Of a stretch of 64,000 bases of DNA, positions 652 through 40,934 are shown piece by piece; within the stretch, counting starts at the first letter, position 1, and the number at the start of each line of letters is the position of its first letter. This stretch comes from Crambe crambe (taxonomy: Eukaryota > Porifera > Demospongiae > Poecilosclerida > Crambeidae). The stretch lies in contig OZ004590.1 of the NCBI GenBank assembly GCA_963924555.1, forward strand, positions 6,874,001 through 6,938,000, given 5' to 3'. Under the pieces are notes generated by a model that worked only from the letters and a program-made list of their open reading frames with translations, had not been told where the DNA came from and ran no database searches. A program made the translations under genes and the position numbers.

Positions 652-3600
652 CTATGCTATTGATGATGAATTGGTATTCTCCAAGTTAGCAGTGTCTTTG
701 TCACCCTTGTCACTTGTCCTGCTGGACTGCCGTCTCTTCTTCTCAGATTTCACTTTCTTAGCAACTGCACCAGACGGCTCCAGCTTTTCTATCACTTGGA
801 GCAGCGGTCTAGAAATAGTGGCTTTCTGCAGTAGTATAACAGAGTTGTGATGGTAAGGACCAGGTCCCAACATCAACTTGAATCTTGGTTATTTACTGAA
901 CAAACCTGGTGGTTGGGGAGTTTCTGAATGTGGCTGTAGAAAGGTGCTTGAATTGAAGGACATGACTGCATTATTTAAAGAAAGAATTGTCAGACCTATA
1001 TCACAATGTCATGTACTTCATTTCCCTCCCCTAAGGGAATGAAGACACACCTTCAAGAGATTATCCAGCTGCTGAGAGGGCAGTCGCAACAAAACTTGGA
1101 AGGAGTGAGGTTTAGTCACCTGCAATCATTATAATGATAATCATAGGGACATCCTCCTTCTCTGTACCATACCTCACAGCATTTGACAAAACCTTGCCAC
1201 ACTTTAGGCTGCGTCCAAACCTGCAAACAGGTTTTAGTATGTTTATTAAAGCACACCAGTATGAACAGTGTTGACTGTACCTGCTTGCTTATTAGCTTTA
1301 TCAAGATTGTCATGACAAAACTAGTCAATTTCGGACAGATGGCAAGAGACTGCAAGACCTTCATAACACAAGTAATGCAACAATTCACATAAAAAGGAAA
1401 TGAGTTGTGTTCTATTTAATACCGTTCTCATAAAGAGGACAGGAATGGGATCTTGCTCAAGCAGCTGCTGCAGGACAACAGCCAGCACTTCCTGTGAGAA
1501 GATGGACCTCTCTTGGAAACATAAGTTAGTGGCTACAGTACCAAAGGTGAAGAGAGACCTTTCTACAGTGCTGAGTGTACTAGTAGTGAAGTAGATCTAA
1601 CCTTTTATCACACACTTCATGAGATTATCGTCTCCTTTGCAATAGATGTTGTGAAGAGCTATGAGTAGCTCCGAGGGAGTCACTGGACAGTGTCCCTGAT
1701 CTCCTGCAAAAAAAAAGAAAAAAAGATCAAAATACAAACCTGGAGTGAAAGGAGTCATGGAGAACTCCCTCCAAAGAGGGTATACCATCTCCCTCACCTC
1801 TGTGGGAAACCAGTAGTCGATCAAAAACACCCTTCACGAGATTGGCACTCAAACGTACGAATTTTGGAAGAGCTGTGATGATTTCTTTCTGTCACATGCA
1901 GACAACGTGTTAGTACACAGAGTTCAAAGTGCGCATGTGACTTCTAACCTTTGTAAGGCCGTGCAGAACTGGGATGAGGAATCGAACATCATGGTAGTTA
2001 CGCTGATACAGTTCCCTCACTCTGTTCACCAACTCCGGAGAAGGAGCAGCTAGAAAAAAGGAAAAGAAGGAGGAGGAGGAGGAGAGAGATCAAGTATACC
2101 ACCACACAGTAGTGTTAATGATAAGGGACCTACCCCCTTCAGTGAGGATATGGAGCATTCTCATTATCAAGGTTTCTCCACCAGGAGGACAGCTCTCTAT
2201 CAGCTGAAGAAGATCTGGAGATGTCATTCCAATGCTACGAACCTACAAGTACAGGGAAACTTGTAGCTGCCTGAACTTCCAGCTTCTATAAACTAGTCAT
2301 ACTGGTTGGTCCAGTTGGCGTAGAATGACTCTCTTGACAGTAGGTGATGTGCTGGTGTACACGAAAGCAAGGCTACATATTATATAGTACCCAGAGGAAG
2401 TCACAGAGAGGGAGGAATTAAGTATTCAGACAGTCACAAATGATAGGGACTTACTCTCTCAGGAGTTTGTGATTGAGTGGCAAGAGAGTGACAAACAGAC
2501 TGAAGCATTTCTTCACGCTAGCTTCTGTCCAATCCACTGCCACAGCTGACATTTGCAAAATTAAATCAATACAGCAACTGGCATTGGTATTAACTATGTA
2601 CCCCACATATGTACCTGTGCCATCGTCCATGGTTTGCTCCTCAAACATCGGATGGTCCTGCAGCAAAAGTTGCAACCTCTGCAGTGCAACTCTCTGCACA
2701 CACAGAGAGACACACAGAGAGTAAAGAAAGGATCATAAGATGTTATCTTGTGTGCACACACCTCAATCTTCATTGCTAGTTCAGGTTTGGCATAGAACTT
2801 CTTGGCTATGTGCATGGATTGAATTCTTGCCTTCAAAATACAAGTAAAATAGTCATATACATACATACATACATACATACATACATACATACATACATAC
2901 ATACATACATACATACATAGATACATACATACATACATACATACACACACACATACCAGTTCGATGTCACTGATGGTGATCTCCAGCAGTGCCTGTAAGA
3001 AGTCCTCAGTTCCTCCTGGACCACGAGGTCTCCGCAATACCAACTCCTTCAGAGTGGACACGCCCAGAAATGCTCGCTCCTGTGTGGGCATGTGCAGTAA
3101 AGAAGGGGAGGGTTCAATCAGACTTGGAATTATTGAAGCAAATAAACTCTTTGCTCCTCTTTATCTATCATGATATCACCTTACCTCTTCACAACAGTAA
3201 GACTTTATGATCTCGAGAGCGTCTGGCGTGACTTTGGGTGATTCCAAGATCAATTTGGTGAAGAGTCTATCTCTAGGTTCCAACTTTTCTTTAGTGCCCA
3301 ACATGAGACTGATCAAACAGGAATTGTAATTATTACTGCTCTGGTCAGAGTTCAAGTAACCCTCAGCGATGCAGTACTCTGCATAGAGCCAAGCTATGGC
3401 TATGTCCAGTCTGCCTCGAAAGTCCTCCAGTATGAATTCCAGGAGTGCTAGAGGGAGGGTGAGGGGGGAGGGGGAGGAGGAGGGAGGAAGGGGGGAAAGG
3501 GGGGGAGGAGGGAGGAGAGGAAGGGGAAAGGGGGGAGGAGGGAGGAGAGGAAGGGGAAAGGGGGGAGGAGGAGGGAGGGGGAAAGGGGGAGGAGAGAGGA

Positions 3601-5498
3601 AGGAGAGGGAGGGGAAAGGGGGAGGAGGGAGGAAGGAAAGGGAGGGGAAAGGGGGAGGAGGGAGGGAGGGGGAAAGAGGGGAGGGATTGATTAGTTTTTC
3701 ATTCGTCAGCAGCAGATAATTTTCTTACTATCTTTGAAGTCTTGTCTGAATAAAGTGACAAGGTTGACAATGAGCCTGACCCTATCTGCACCTGCTCCTC
3801 CTCGACAGACACTCTCTGAGGTGGATGAGGGAGGAGCAGAGGGAAGAGAGTTAAAAAGATGAGGGAATTAAGAGGCATCTTGTAAACTGTATCTCCAGAC
3901 TCACTCTCGGAGTTGAGTATCCTCCTGAAGGCAGCCACAGTCATTTCCCTTGCATGCTCCTCATCAAGCACCTTCACTAAAGAACTTACTTCAAACTTAT
4001 GAATCCTTTTCAACTTCTGTAGAAAATGGAGAAAAGAACAATAGAACTTGCCATAGATTCATAAAGTATCTCTTCACCTGTGGAATTGTGGCTTGCAGCT
4101 GCATCTAAAGGGGGAGAGTGCAAATGAAATAGTCATGTGATAAGTCATGTGACATTGTTCCCATGCAAACCTTTCGCTTATCTTTCTCCTTTAATTCTTT
4201 TGAATCTATTAAAATAATAGTATGACATGATATAACAAATTGGGCGCCAGTTTGATTAAGTACCTTCTTCAGATGGAGTTGTGGGTATTTCCACAAGCTG
4301 CAAAGATACAATGAACGTAATGACCAATCAGACTCTAACCTAAAGGGCTCACATTTGATGCATGGACGAATTCCGTCTTCTCTGTTTTTATCTCTGTTTT
4401 GACACCACTGGGGCCAAAGAAAGTGGCATAGGCAATAGGGAACATGGGGTCCATGATGTTCGGCAAACCCAACAATGACCCCAAGTATGACAACTCCCTC
4501 ATGCTCTTCTCCAGGTTGTGATCCTAAACAAGATGGTTAAATGGTTGCTAGATGGTTACAATATAATGAACTATGATCACTTTGACTGTTAAAACCTAAA
4601 TCAGTCACAAAAAAATTAAGCCATTTTTTTTTCAGAAATGACAATGTCTGTAGACTTGCAAAAAATGGCCTATTTTTTCTGAGATCACTAGCATTCAAAT
4701 GCATGATGCCTAGATTGACTTGACTGTTAATTTCATCTGCCTGTTATTAGAACATACATACTTCACTGGTGTCTTCTTCTTCATCTTTTATCTTTTTCCG
4801 TTTCCCATCCCTCTTGTCATCGTCGTCACCTTCCTTGTCGCGAGGACGCTTCCGGGGGTCCCTAACCACAGGAGAACAGCCTGGACTCTCTGAATGAGTG
4901 CTCTAATTAAAAGGAAACCAAACCCAATCAATTCTCCTTCCTTTATATTATGTACATACACACACACATTACCTACCTGCTGTTGCGGTAAAATTCCTTT
5001 AGCCTGAGCTCCTACTCCAATACCTGCTGAGGTCATTTGAGAGGCCAGCAACCGGGCCAAGTGCCTAACCTGAGAGTGAGGAAGGGGAATGAACTCTTTA
5101 TTACTCTATCAAGAATGGGGTTGGTTGTAGGACCTGTGCTTCAGTGCCTGCAGCTGCTATTGGAGTGTAGGAGTGTCCAAATGATTTAGGCTGACTGGAG
5201 GGGATGTTGTCCATGTTGGCTATGACCAGTTCAGTGACAGCTTCAGGTGTCAGCAAAGGCTTCAAATCTTCAGGGGAACAAGAGAAAAAGAGAATAATTA
5301 TTATAAAGAAAGACCTGCTTTTTTTTTTTCCATTACATACATACATACATACATACCATTGGTGGTCATTTCAATGGCTTCCAGCAGTGCTGAACCAGAG
5401 GTCGGCTTATCGTCACCAGCCCCTCCGCTAAGTCCAGATACCTTCCCTGAGGCTACAGCTGAAGATAATTCTAGACCCTAAAAATGGTGATAATGATG

Positions 5499-11572: not shown

Positions 11573-14500
11573 CTAGGCTGGCTCCTTTTGTTGTTTTATG
11601 AGTTTCATACACAGATCACACACTCTGACTGGATATTCCCATCCTCTGCTTGGTACAGGAGCCTTGTGGGTGGAGCATTTATCACAAAAACCCTGTCCAC
11701 ATGCCCTGCAGTGGTGCTTGGAGTCTTTAGAACCAAATTCCAACTTGCATTTGTGACAGTGTGTGATTTTGTCGTTAGCGATCCAATAAGTTGGCCTTGC
11801 TGACTCCACTGCAATTTCCTTGGGGTAACTGAGCACACCAGATGCCAGACCCATTGCTGAGTGCAACACTTCCCCCATATAGCGTGCAGTGACACCATCT
11901 CCCCCTCCTCCTGGTGTGCTATCAGTTCTTATCCCCTTTTCCGGCTTCTTGCTCTGATGAGCAGGCAACCCATTCTGCATCTTTTTCTCATTTCGTTGCT
12001 TGTAGCATGCATTGCACACACGGACAGGAACATTACCCCATCCTTTCCAGGGAACGGGCATGGTTTGTGATGAGCATTTGTCACAGAACCCTCTACCACA
12101 CGCTCGGCAGTGGTGTTTAGTCATGGGGGGAAGGAACGATTGCTTGCACTCTCCACACACCTACATATAATGAAATCATGGCTGAAATTTGAACACAACA
12201 CTTACTAATGTGACTCAATCCCCCATTTAAGAGGTAAGTTAGACTTACAGTGATAGTAGAGTCAGGAGCCCAGTATTTTGGTGCTACTTGATTGGATAGC
12301 CACCCAGTCACCATCTGAGCTGGCCTAGAAGAAACACTGCCCACAGCACCAGCCACACTCTCAATTCCATCAAGTAACCGGCGGGCGGTGTTATCAGAAA
12401 CCTGTCCGCTGGGAACATCCTATAATGATTTATATACTCTTGTTGTTGTTGTTGTTGTTGTTATTGTTGTTGTTGTTTATACCTCAGGCCAAATGTGTCT
12501 ATTTTCAGTCCTGACGGCTTGAAGCTCTGGCTCTTTGTTTCCATACCAGTGCTCTCTGCTGCGATAAATCACTCCACAATGCTTACACTCAATGACATAC
12601 CTAAAGAGATAACAGAGCCAGAGTGTCATAATGCTGAATTGGGTACTTGAAGGAAGGGCTTACCCAGACCAAGCATATTTTGCAACTCCAATCCAGCTGG
12701 CATCTTTACTAGATGATGTTTTGGGGAATACAATGCTTTCAATTCCACGGTTATAGCAAGTCTATTGGGAGGTGGGTAGGATATTTCAGAAGAAATTAAT
12801 TTTGGTGAAGCACAAGAAAACAGTGACTTCAGTACAGGCTACACTAAACTTTTACCTTGCAGAGGTAGACTTTGTTGTCATGGGAAGAACTATAGTTACA
12901 ACGAGTGGCAGTGAGTTTGTGCTGGTCTCCATCTCTGTAATGATTCATGCTCAACTCACAACGTCCTCTAGAGATAATAAACACAGTTACTTCTCAATCA
13001 AGCTGGTGTAATGTGGTACTCACCCACAGGCCAGGCAGGACTGAGGACAGGAGAAATAAGCATCAGGGAAGGTACTCACTCTATGACTTGTGATATCACC
13101 ATTAAACTTTGCATTCAAAACCTGGTCGATTATGAAATTCTAATCGAAGTCCTTCCATACAATACTTGAGATTGCGTACCTGTAATGCTTTGAGGACTAT
13201 GACTGGTGTTCTGGGTGCTCGAATGGCATTATTCTTCAGTAGAGTTGTCACGGCTTTCAGTAATCCAGTGAAGTCTGTTGGTGGCCATCTAGTCCTAGTA
13301 CCTACATACTCCACTGAGCAGAATGCCTTTGGAATTCGCCCAACCTCAGAAAATCTAACCAAATGATAGTAAATAGATATGGTTAACTCAAATATATTCC
13401 AGACCTCATTCGTAATAGTTCTTCTGCTGTCATGTGTGGTGTTGCTTGTTTGCTCTTGCCCTCAACTTGCTCACCCTTCTCCTGCTCTCCACCCGATAAT
13501 GTTGAGGTTTCCTTTTTCAGCTTCTGAGGTTGAAATGCTGAAGTGGATCCCAGCAGGTCAGTGTGCTGGGTTTCATGGAATATCACCACTGAAGGGCCCA
13601 GGCTCGAGAGAGGGATATTCAACTTGTAACGATCAGAGGCATTCTATAAAATTGGGTCAGTTAGTGATGTTTGCCATAGAACAACCTCTTAAAGATAGGA
13701 AGAACCTTTAGTTCAGGTGTGAAGTACTTCCAGTATGCATCAGAAGCATCTCCCAGGAAAGTGAACATGTCATTATGTAGCCTCTCGGCACGAGTCCTGT
13801 AGATGACCACGTCAGAAATAGCCAGAATCTTCAAGAGCAGTCTGGTCCTACGATTCTCGTTCTGTGAGGCCCCAAGCAAACCTTCAGAGTCCAGAAATAT
13901 TGCCCTGTGGTGACTTGAATAGGCTGCCCACACTCCCACGGTACAAGACTGCTGGTCAGATGAAGTCCTAAAGACCTGGAGAAATTCATATGCAATCACT
14001 GCATCAAATTATGGTCCAACTAAGTGAAGGTCACTATGTTCTAATTTTACTTCTTTTCCTAGGAAGAAGGTGTGGTTCAGTGTATAAGATTTCCCATCGC
14101 CAGTATTTCCAAAAATAGAAACTATTTTTATTTTTTCTTCCTTATTACAACCAAGGAGCTTGATAAGTTCTTCTTGGTCAGATATCTGTTGGGGGTGGGG
14201 AGAGAGAGAAGAAAAAAGTGAATCTAGCTCAGGGGAGAATCAATTCAATTTACCACCAATTCTTCCTTGGCATTGAGCAGTAAATGACTAGATGGTATAG
14301 ACTCGACTGTCATTGTGGTCGGATTTATGACGTTCCTATGTCTAGAGTGAGCCTGCTTCTTCCCCTGGTGCATTTTACCATCACACGCCTCACACAAACC
14401 CATCTCACATTCTCCACAGAAGACACTGACTGGGTTCTTTGGGGAACACCATAGTTCACACATTTTACTGTCGAACTCTACAACAGGGAGTTTCTGGCGC

Positions 14501-14933: not shown

Positions 14934-17900
14934 ATGTCAAAGTCTATAAAACGCCCCATTATTGAGTCAGATAGCGAAGATTCTGACTCTGACCAGGTAG
15001 AAGCGAATAAAAATCATATCTATGGATATGTCCTGTCCTGGGGCCTACATCGTTTGTTTCTGTGCCTTTACCATTTTTTACACTTTAACCACAAATCCCT
15101 TCCCTTTCAATTTAATAATACCAAAAAAAGACACCTTATTTCATTCACTTTACACATAGGGTGGTCATTCTCTTGCCTCCATGCCCAAACGACCAAAACC
15201 CTCAGTTCCAGCTGCCCAGTCCAGTGGCTCTGGCTCAACCTCTGACTCGGACAGTGATGCTGAGGTGTGATCACTATAATGATAATTCAATACAATCTCA
15301 CCACAACTAACTATGGGTTGAATGATACCATGTAGTGCAAAGTTTTTTTTGTGGGAAAGTTTAAATTTTTGTTGTTACATGTACAAATCCACAAAAATTC
15401 TTCTGCTATATGGTAATATTCTAACCATTTCATGTGATATGATGAAATGCCTCCAAGTACAATACTTCTGGAAGTGGAGGGGTTACACATTTCTTGAATG
15501 TTTCGCTTTATAGTGGACCATAGGAGGAGGGACTGGGGGGAAAAAGATGGCCTTGGGTGTCACCAAGAAGGGACAGAGTGGAGGGAAGAGTATGGTCCAT
15601 CGCAAAGTATCAGCAAAGAAAGTTCCTCCTCCAGTATCTAGTGATTCCAGCGAGGACGACGAAGATGAAGAAGATGTTGATCAACGGAAGATGGAGAGTT
15701 CCAGCAGTGAGGGGAGCAGTTCGGACAGTGATAGCTCCTCGGAGGAATCGCTCAAGTTTGATGATGGTTTGGACGAACAGCTCCAAGGAGACGAGGAAGA
15801 CCAAAAGAAGCTGAGTCTCATGAATGAGAAGGAAAGAGAGGCAGAGATGTACAACAGGTATGCAGCTGATTTTTGTTTTGTTTGTTTATTTGTTGTTGTT
15901 GTTGTTGTTGTTGTTGTTATTGTTGTTGTTGTTTTGAACAGTCTAATATGACAAGATATTATCGTGTAGGTATGAAAAGCGAGAAGCTCTCAAAGCAAGA
16001 TTTGAGATTGAGCAAAAGCTCCGTCGCCAGAAGAAGCATGAAAAGAGGAAAGCCAAGGAAGAGAAGATGAAACGGATGGTGGTAAGAGGCAAGAGAGGAA
16101 AACAGCAAGACCGAAGCAAGTCCCAAGCCATGGATGAATACAAGGCTAAGCGATCTGCTGGTAATGTGTAGAAAGAAGTAGTCAATCATTGGAGATTCCT
16201 CTTTCTGTTTTCTGACTCACTCCCTCTTATCTTCAGATAAGATCCGCAAGGCAGAAGCAGAGAAGCATCAAGAGGAGAAGGAGCCATTGAAGGCATCGGA
16301 CATCTTTACCAGTGAGTCTGATGACGAAGGGAGCAGTAGTGAGGCTTCAGACTCCGATCAGAGGGACTCAGATGATGAAGCAGGAGCCAAGTGAGTACTA
16401 TGAACCTAAACTGCTCTCATCGTGATGATGCTTGTCACAGGGCAATAACCGGGCTACGTGAGTCTGCTCCAAAGTACATCTCAACGGCACATGAACTGGC
16501 AAAAATTCGACTCTCGCGTTACAGACTAGAGAAGTAAGTAGTGCGTGTGCTTACATAATGGGTCAGCCTGTGACTACCTGTGTTTATGACATCATCAGAT
16601 GGGTCCATATGCCGTTCTTTTCTGAAGCAATCACAGGATGCTATGTCAGAATAGGTATCGGTGCCCATGAAGGAAGAATGATATATAGGGTGAGTAAGCT
16701 AGTTTCGATATTACTATTGTACTCTTAATTAGATAGTATTTTTCCCATGTGCCCATATCAAAAATATAAGATAATATGTAAACATTAATTTGGTAGTGTT
16801 ATGATTTTACTGAGTCTTTCAGTCCATTGATATCACGAGGAATATAGTTCTCTGTGAATTCTTGCATGTTCTGTAAAATTGCTACTTGCTGTGGGTAACT
16901 GGTGTTGGTGCAAGATTGGAGAGTCTCTCTGTCTGGCATCAACAGGACTCCTGGATGTACGATCCTCAAAAGTGCCCTTAAATTCTCCTTCAGATCTCCA
17001 ATACTTTGTATCAAGTAATCTAGTGAACTCCTATAGTTGTCAGATTCTATGTCTTGTGAAATCTGGTGGAAATACTGACAGTAGTCATGCAGACTTGCAT
17101 AGTCATTTCGAAGTCTTTCTCTGAAGTCGGTTCTTGGGTGTGGATGGTAAATAGCGTCTGCTGACCTCTCTTCATAAAAGCATGGTGGTGTTTGTGGCAT
17201 ATTGTGTAGATATCCTCTGGAAAGAAAGTGGGTGGTTAGACAACGCTGAAGATTGGCTGCAGCTCTTCGTGACTGGATGCATAGATCTTTGATGGCTGTT
17301 TGTAGTGCTGGGCGATCAAGTGGAGGAGCAGTTGGTGTCGTAGAGGAAGAGGTCATAGAGCTGGTTCTTGTTGGAGTAATGGAAGGCTGGGGATGTCCAG
17401 TCGAAATTTCGTTGCATAAAGTACTCGATCCGATCATATCCAGTTCTTGATAAGTGCAAGATTGAGCACTACTTAAAAACCCCATGAAGTGGATTAGCAA
17501 GAGACCAATTATTCTCAAGTTCATCTTCGTACTCGGTTATAATATTGAATCATTCTCCTGTACTCCCTTATATAATATTTCTTTCTATCAATGACATCAC
17601 AGATTTATTTGCCTTCAGGGCATGCCTAGGGGAGTTATAGCCAACATTGTTATTTTCACAATGTCCCTCTACGGTAGGCCTGGTTCCTGTCTGTGGTTTT
17701 CATTTCTTAATCTTGTTTTTGGTCTCTTCCTGACATGATGACGCAACTCTTCCCATGCTTCCATTCCATTCTGATCCAGTTCTCATAATCTCCCCTCATC
17801 GCATTCATAATAAAATACAAAAAAATTAACTATAATAGGCTATTATTGGGAAATCTTGCTTTGTAAAACTTTTAGAGAGAATATAATTATATTTAGTAAA

Positions 17901-18136
17901 TCAATAAAAAGACGTGTCTCCCCCAATTACCCCTATTATTATTACAGTTGCTGTGATTGTTTCAGATTTGTGAGATCATAGCCGTCCAGGAAACCCCTAA
18001 AGTGTACACTCTGGGCTCCACCAAGACCAATAAGGGTCTCAAACTAAGGTACCTTGTATCGTATGGTTATGTAATTAAGCTGGTAGAACCTCTCTCTTTC
18101 TTAATGGAGTCTTTCTGGAAGCAACAGAAATTAGGG

Positions 18137-30334: not shown

Positions 30335-34344
<4,010 letters not shown>

Positions 34345-38849: not shown

Positions 38850-40934
38850 TCATTGCACAATGTTTTTTAACTCTGTTACTTTATCAAGATGAACTTGAAG
38901 TGGCAATCCGTCCACAGATAGGTCCTTCTTCCCAGTTATTCCATCAGAGATACCATTCTCATTCATTAACTTCAGCAAAGAAGTAATCTAAAGAAAGGTT
39001 GAAGCTTAAATCTTTGATCTGACTATATTGTTACCTTATCTCCAGTGGGAAGAAAGTTGTCAAGCTCATAAGTCACGATTCTGTCTGTATCAACAGCATG
39101 GTTTCTGTACCGCCAGTGGATGGGGGAGTGAGACAACACATACAGTCCCAGTGAAACTGCATAACCAGCCCAATTGGAGACACCAGCTACTATGACAAAG
39201 TCTGTGGCAGTCGTACAGGCAATTGTCTCCCCATGAGGGATGTATTTGACCACCTGTTCATACACCTTCCCCATACCAAGCTCATTACCACCATCCCCGA
39301 TGGAAATGGTGCTAATAAGTGGATTGGATTCTGCCATGATGAATAGGTCATCCACAGGCTCAACTGACACAGTTTTGGCTTTCATTGTATGATAGGATCC
39401 ATCCTTAGCTCTTCCCGCCCTCTCAATGGCCAACAGACAATCCCACGGAGGAGAATCTGGTCTTCCATTTTGTAAAATCTCCACAGCTGAAGAATATGGG
39501 ATGACTTTCACTGCTGACTTGAGAACTTTGAGTTCTGTCATGTGATCAGCACATGATTGGTATAGACCAACAGTACCACTGTCCGCTATCAAAATGACTT
39601 CCTTATCCAGGGCCAAGAGTGCTTGACAAATGGATAAGGCTCCAGGAAGTCCGTCAGTTTCTTCCTTGACTTCAAGTTCAGTATGAACTGGAAAACCAGT
39701 GGTGATTGCGACCCTCTTAGCATGGGAAAGGGACAGGACCGATTTCAGCAAGTCTGACTCTTGGTACAAGTGGGACACACCCCTTCCACCTTGGTCGTCC
39801 AAGATGGCTTTTTCAAGCTTGTGCATGGTGTTCACAGATCTCTTCTCTAAGACAGAAGCAAAGAAAGGCTGGTGTTCTCTTGAGAGAACCACGACATCAA
39901 AGTCGTCTCCAATGCTCTTAGGCTGAGCCTGAATATCAGTGATGAACATGGATCCTGAGTAATGAGTAAAAGCCAATTGTGGTGCTGCAGTGGAAAAAAA
40001 AAAAGAAAAAAAGGAGAGGATCAATGATCAATATAATCCATGTATCACATGACCAAATTACCATTGAAGCCATGCCACTAGCTAACTTACCAGCATTCAT
40101 CACAGCTTGACTGACAGTGAATCCACACGCCCAAAACACAGGCACTTCATCTTCTTCCACCTCACATGTGTCTCCTGCAGTGGGTTGACCGAGATCAGTC
40201 ACTCCAATCCGTCCTGGGTTGCCCATGTGCACAGGTGCACCATGAGACGTGGGATACTGAGCAGAAATCAAAAAAGCTTCGGAAATTTGTGACTTCCTGA
40301 TTGGTCTCATGGTAACGATCATGTCGGCATTAAACGCCCCAGCTTGCTTTAGTCCAATGTTTGTCAAGTACATAGATGCATTTCTTCCCAAGTTCATGTT
40401 CTTCATTGGAATTCCATGGTTGTTCAGTGCCATCTCGAAAGTAAAGCTGCATCCCAAGTAGAAAGTGACTCGGTCAGCCCAGCTATCCTCAAATCCACTC
40501 AAATCAAGAATGTCTTCCACAACTCCACCTTTGCTGTAAATATAATATCTTGGAAGATCGGTCCTACAGGTTCAGAAAAGATTAATTATGCCAGCTAATG
40601 ATAGGAGTAGAGTCACAGATTTATACTTTATGTCTGACTCTCGAGCTAAGGGAGGTGCAGTACATTCTCCTGGCTGGCTCTTGTAGAGAAGGGGAAAGGG
40701 ACCGGAGTTTCTCTTGCAGAATTCTTCAAAGTCATCAGCCAGTTCCTTGGGGAGGACTATTATGTTAGCCTGAGTGTAGCCTCTACAGAAGCCAGATGTC
40801 GGGCCATAGTACCCATTCCTCCTGAATAATGATCTGGCTTCTGAAGGTTGGAGAACAGACGCCTTTTCAGGTGGAGGGATGAACTTGTACTCCATAATAA
40901 TGCGCATGCATAATTGTCTAATACGCACGCGCAC
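38850..40934 (-). CDS. DGLUCY: D-glutamate cyclase, mitochondrial
   Basis: Converts D-glutamate to 5-oxo-D-proline. The N-terminal half matches the putative hydro-lyase (DUF1445) family: RSLFRRNGYYGPTSGFCRGY, FYLGCSFTFEMAL, MTVRPI-like MIVTMRPI and SHGAPVHMGNPGRIGV, ending at VFWACGFTVSQAVMNAG. The C-terminal half, in a large exon from about 39023 to 39985, matches the glutamate cyclase-like DUF4392 region: AITTGFPV, GLPGALSICQALLAL, SIGDGGNELGMGKV, TDFVIVAGVSNWAGYA. The final exon ends LKNIVQ at 38850-38852. The fusion of both halves is the DGLUCY layout. The ATG at 40934 adds an Arg-rich MRVRIRQLCMRII leader that would suit mitochondrial import; a shorter start MEYKFIPPP is possible. Confidence 0.92.

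Follow-up and report, generated by a model that had tools for sequence, protein, structure and literature searches.

A contact hallmark of the IL-6 (gp130) family of long-chain class I cytokines is found at site III, either as a Trp or as the motif FxxK where helix D begins; the verified sequences of CNTF and CLCF1 contain this motif. According to the excerpted text of one study (PMC13203501), JAK and STAT are present in Porifera, IL-6-family cytokines have been reported solely from vertebrates, and IL6R is traced no further than molluscs. An excerpt of another study reports the absence of CRLF3 from Porifera (PMC6797617). None of the literature titles surveyed reported a helical cytokine from a sponge. 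Here, we analyzed a 64,000-nucleotide (nt) stretch of the demosponge Crambe crambe (assembly GCA_963924555.1; contig OZ004590.1, positions 6,874,001 to 6,938,000; referred to as the window), in which an initial annotation had proposed a CNTF/CLCF1-like four-helix cytokine encoded antisense inside an RTF1 intron. As judged from the translation and from structure models, this frame probably encodes a secreted four-helix orphan protein; its assignment as a putative cytokine-type extracellular ligand is tentative and somewhat doubtful.

Antisense reading frame within an RTF1 intron

The open reading frame (ORF) starts with MNLRIIGLLLIHFMGFLSSAQSC in the C. crambe window (16799-17524, minus strand). 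Its features and those of its host are listed below in window positions.

16690..17965 (+), RTF1 intron that hosts the antisense ORF and splits the Plus-3 domain (profile matches)
16799..17524 (-), single-exon ORF for the predicted secreted helical protein (241 codons, counted from the first ATG after a stop)
17567..17574 (-), TATATAAG, 50 nt before the ATG (motif scan, weak)
17459..17524 (-), predicted signal peptide, approximately residues 1 to 22 (hydropathy and cleavage-site rule; cut at 19 by the rule)
17315..17413 (-), Ser/Thr/Pro-rich linker, approximately residues 38 to 70 (translation; low model confidence)
17222..17314 (-), helix A, residues 71 to 101 (AlphaFold2, low confidence; amphipathic beyond shuffles, P = 0.034)
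17051..17134 (-), helix B, residues 131 to 158 (AlphaFold2, low confidence; amphipathicity not above shuffles, P = 0.30)
16958..17035 (-), helix C, residues 164 to 189 (AlphaFold2, low confidence; amphipathic, P = 0.014)
16898..16906 (-), N-glycosylation site Asn-Thr-Ser, residues 207 to 209 (N207; the sole NxS/T site)
16805..16894 (-), helix D, residues 211 to 240 (AlphaFold2, low confidence; amphipathicity not above shuffles, P = 0.12)

The host was identified as RTF1 because the flanking plus-strand exons match successive parts of the Plus-3 domain, namely, positions 12 to 47 in 16495-16692(+) (34.4 bits, above the cut-off) and the next stretch, positions 45 to 80, in 17957-18064(+) (18.6 bits alone, below the cut-off of 27). 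The intron (16690-17965) is 1,276 nt long, versus 46, 66, 76, and 112 nt for the four upstream introns; the intron placements are ours, with a possible error of 1 to 2 nt at one donor. Both ends of the large intron are spanned by a 16-nt inverted repeat (94% complementary), whose arms lie within the upstream exon (16621-16636) and at the 3' splice site (17951-17966).

Frames of this length were rare in simulated sequences. The longest ATG-initiated ORF encoded 114 to 237 residues across 60 order-3 Markov windows (at least 241 residues in 0 of 60), and 51.2 Mb of order-4 simulated noncoding DNA contained 3 ORFs of at least 241 residues. A signal-like start was present in none of the 30 ORFs of at least 200 residues in the latter simulation and in 14 of the 445 real ATG ORFs of at least 60 residues outside masked exons (9 without a transmembrane-like stretch). 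Given its length and signal peptide, the frame is unlikely to be a chance ORF.

Predicted protein and fold

Under a crude rule (not SignalP), the N terminus is signal-like (hydrophobic core mean, 2.68) and the rest of the 241-residue protein is free of transmembrane-like stretches (maximum 19-residue mean, 0.75), the pattern taken here as the secretion feature. The protein has seven Cys residues (23, 37, 82, 95, 115, 149, and 205), and the linker sits between the first two of these and the helical part. Structures were predicted with AlphaFold2 from one sequence each, for the full-length protein and for the domain only. The mean predicted local distance difference test (pLDDT) scores were 45 and 55, and the predicted template modeling scores were 0.39 and 0.49, values at which the packing is unreliable; in the domain-only model, helix D was split into residues 211 to 227 and 232 to 239.

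Much of the initial annotation was borne out at this level. The ORF scan and the Plus-3 matches confirmed a single 241-residue frame antisense inside the RTF1 intron, while the translation and hydropathy rule recovered the signal peptide, the Ser/Thr/Pro linker, the seven Cys residues, and the one N-glycosylation site. The AlphaFold2 helices coincided, at low confidence, with the claimed blocks A to D, and the long A-B and C-D connections and the short B-C turn were present in the models. The proposed up-up-down-down topology was not supported, the models being too uncertain (mean pLDDT, 45 and 55). As for the claim that the frame has its own TATA box, the motif TATATAAG does precede the ATG by 50 nt, but TATAWAAG is not rare in the window (8 observed versus 4.6 expected), and the motif is therefore weak evidence. 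In the 1,200 nt after the stop, a scan for 11 poly(A) signal variants found only CATAAA (+210) and AATAAA (+908).

In the fold searches, prolactin chains made up 6 of the 50 Foldseek matches listed for the domain model, but VIA-align placed no class I cytokine in the best 50 of 605 and 496 chains for the domain and full-length models, respectively (by its own note, absence from a match list does not exclude a family). Foldseek with the full-length model gave no cytokine among the matches listed (50 of 92).

Comparison with IL-6-family cytokines

The helical domain had weak pairwise similarity to IL-11, CT-1, and CLCF1. Profiles of 4 to 9 IL-6-family members gave it 9 to 16 bits, more than window shuffles, and ranked it first of 2,113 translated segments. 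This score came mainly from helices B and C, and the ERLR block of helix B (residues 131 to 158) was aligned by the profiles to their own helix B. With the four-member profile, the domain scored on par with held-out LIF and OSM, and a global alignment with CLCF1 was collinear across the four helices. Profiles of growth hormone, EPO, and interferon gave no such signal. Class-preserving shuffles, in which each position retains its residue class (hydrophobic, small, Pro, or polar), were made under two schemes; the score of the set with IL-11 was reached by 0.46% and by none of them. In total, the domain was scored with 26 distinct profiles or models of one sequence (12 in the first profile comparison, with 9 and then 5 new ones in later comparisons), several of the IL-6-family ones giving no signal. 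Decoys in the pairwise and first profile comparisons excluded single-residue-rich stretches and anything containing the target, and those in the last comparison excluded the target only.

Several results weigh against a cytokine assignment. The same two shuffling schemes reached the four-member score in 2.2% and 0.12% of cases, the nine-member score in 1.5% and 0.16%, and the verified-member score in 6.9% and 2.2%; because of these rates, part of the profile signal is shared layout and the remainder is modest. Without CLCF1, the profile score fell to 3.8 bits; an IL-6 plus G-CSF profile gave 0.9 bits, a LIF plus OSM profile gave -0.2 bits, and single-member models gave approximately 0 to 1 bits. 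The hhalign probability was 4 to 9% for four- and five-member sets. A comparison with Pfam-A by hmmscan (HMMER filters on) returned only DUF4250 (E value, 0.18) and no curated family match, and both FxxK and Trp are absent from the 241 residues. The profile sets were picked after the first pairwise results, with IL-11 added once its score was known, and the profile P values are not significant when scaled to a whole-genome search. Any weight that they carry comes solely from the order of events, since the candidate and its CNTF/CLCF1 label, which came from the initial annotation, preceded the profile tests.

Genome searches covered 143.14 Mb in 119 contigs; an excerpt of the assembly report gives 143.20 Mb in 124 scaffolds (PMC12166358). 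The profiles PF01110, PF00489, PF07400, and PF06875 had no match at the locus, and all four were silent in the control genomes too. The only genome match of the IL-6 profile (E value, 0.066; C5:8690907) was dropped, as it adjoins a P-loop frame (L024, 1453-2268, minus strand), which we take to resemble a GIMAP/AIG1 GTPase. The IL-11 profile had a single genome match (E value, 1.46; C1), and that of the CNTF protein (E value, 4.0; C11) contained stops and was discarded. A PDB sequence search with the whole protein gave 5 matches with E values of at most 10, the best to telomerase (0.023), and no cytokine.

Exons matching the STAT_bind profile were present in the C. crambe genome. The JAK-type FERM_F2 profile was silent in the genome and in the controls as well. 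Among class I receptor domains, PF09240 found nothing in the genome with the controls also silent, and PF09067 found nothing with the controls matched only below the cut-off, in two prokaryotes; the suggested search for gp130-like receptors was thus without a match, albeit with blunt tools. The CNTF likeness seen by eye was rejected, since the local BLOSUM62 score of 29 was no better than the shuffle mean of 29.4 (BLASTP E value, 0.78). Of the cytokine interpretation, secretion, the four predicted helices, and a weak IL-6-family similarity from several-member profiles are supported; the CNTF likeness, the curated match, the topology, and the receptor-contact residues are not supported.

Alternative explanations

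A nonfunctional chance or decayed open frame within a large intron would explain some of these data, and the codon evidence leans that way. The codon score of the frame (-0.037) is below that of all 18 training exons (leave-one-out); among 365 other open frames, 56% score at least as high, as do 22% of 2,000 random noncoding windows. Moreover, there is no AATAAA before +908 after the stop, and the frame has no relative in viral or prokaryote contigs. These points weigh against a gene. However, the codon bias of this genome is weak, and the codon test has poor power, since a score of only -0.015 was obtained for an exon resembling a secreted CUB protein; when synonymous choice alone is considered, 3 of the 18 exons score as low as the frame. 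Approximately 8 chance ORFs this long are expected in 143 Mb, few of which would start signal-like (at 14 in 445), and the combined counts therefore predict well under one such case genome-wide. The host intron is also more than 10 times the length of the four preceding introns. Protein and DNA searches matched the frame once in the genome (only the best candidates were scored), and searches of PHROGs, NCBIfam, Rfam, DNA copies, and repeats gave nothing informative. We consider a chance or decayed frame unlikely and the frame likely to be a working gene.

If it is a gene, its product may well be a lineage-specific secreted helical protein without a signaling role (e.g., matrix or spicule associated, defensive, or an enzyme inhibitor), which is quite possible; the cytokine likeness would then come down to general features, namely, secretion, four amphipathic helices, and loops that contain Pro. 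The stronger form of the ligand reading, genuine homology to the vertebrate IL-6 (gp130) family, draws on the four-member score close to those of held-out LIF and OSM and on the collinear CLCF1 alignment over four helices. Against it are the missing curated Pfam match, the lack of FxxK or Trp, and the excerpted reports that confine the family to vertebrates and IL6R to lineages back to molluscs (PMC13203501) and that find no CRLF3 in Porifera (PMC6797617). We regard such homology as improbable and do not file the protein, which lacks two of the defining features tested, as an IL-6-family member.

Under the ligand reading, the nested single-exon gene would be transcribed and its secreted product would lose the signal peptide. 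In the mature chain, a four-helix bundle folded up-up-down-down would follow a brief N-terminal segment that carries two Cys residues and a possibly O-glycosylated Ser/Thr/Pro linker. Outside the cell, the protein would act as a ligand with the layout of a long-chain cytokine, would be recognized by a sponge cell-surface receptor, and might signal into JAK-STAT. Binding would call for another receptor or interface, since the protein lacks the residues that usually contact gp130/LIFR. It is a long shot that demosponges hold a long-chain cytokine of the CLCF1/CT-1/IL-11 branch acting through JAK-STAT and an unrecognized receptor; were this so, the ligand class would be older than the nervous and adaptive immune systems. 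Should the ligand reading hold, IL-6/CLCF1-type messengers would be pushed back to the earliest animals, for which the evidence is no more than suggestive. A real ligand candidate would make a gap testable, in that JAK and STAT occur in Porifera without IL-6-family cytokines or CRLF3 in the excerpted accounts (PMC13203501, PMC6797617). A secreted orphan alone would be an ordinary intron-nested gene of recent origin or rapid evolution.

Other features of the region

On the minus strand of the window, a frame at 11573-12124 has two tandem FYVE zinc-finger stretches, and two adjacent frames at 39023-40433 match D-glutamate cyclase (PF07286) and a GLUCM-like C-terminal domain (PF14336). A long AG/CT microsatellite at 30946-31848 is open on both strands as Arg-Glu and Ser-Leu repeats and is probably not a gene. 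Elsewhere, another single-frame protein with a signal-like start (260 residues; minus strand of L019, approximately 3307-4089; C13:6837307-6838089) has a stretch that we take to resemble a CUB domain.

Comparison with known systems

Prolactin appeared among the Foldseek matches listed (6 of 50), yet the pairwise Z scores were -0.6 for prolactin and 0.45 for growth hormone, and the prolactin/growth hormone profile gave 2.1 bits, equaled by 3.9% of shuffles. The best superpositions of the low-confidence models were with 6n63, the S23-family protein 2rld, designed bundles, and pectinesterase/invertase inhibitors, which are alike in helix number and lengths; their Z scores were in the range that the tool marks as common, with 3 to 15% identity in the rows named. 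By description only, the protein can be likened to Drosophila Unpaired-3, a putative Domeless ligand that is secreted, invertebrate, and upstream of JAK and STAT in an excerpted account (PMC7378365). From the IL-6 (gp130) family, the sponge protein differs in its extra N-terminal two-Cys piece with a Ser/Thr/Pro linker and its single exon, in addition to lacking a curated match, Trp, and FxxK. It resembles the long-chain class I cytokines CLCF1, cardiotrophin-1 (CT-1), CNTF, IL-27 p28, and IL-11 in size, four predicted helices, and loop layout; its weak profile likeness to the IL-6 family centers on two segments, helix C and the helix B block ERLR.
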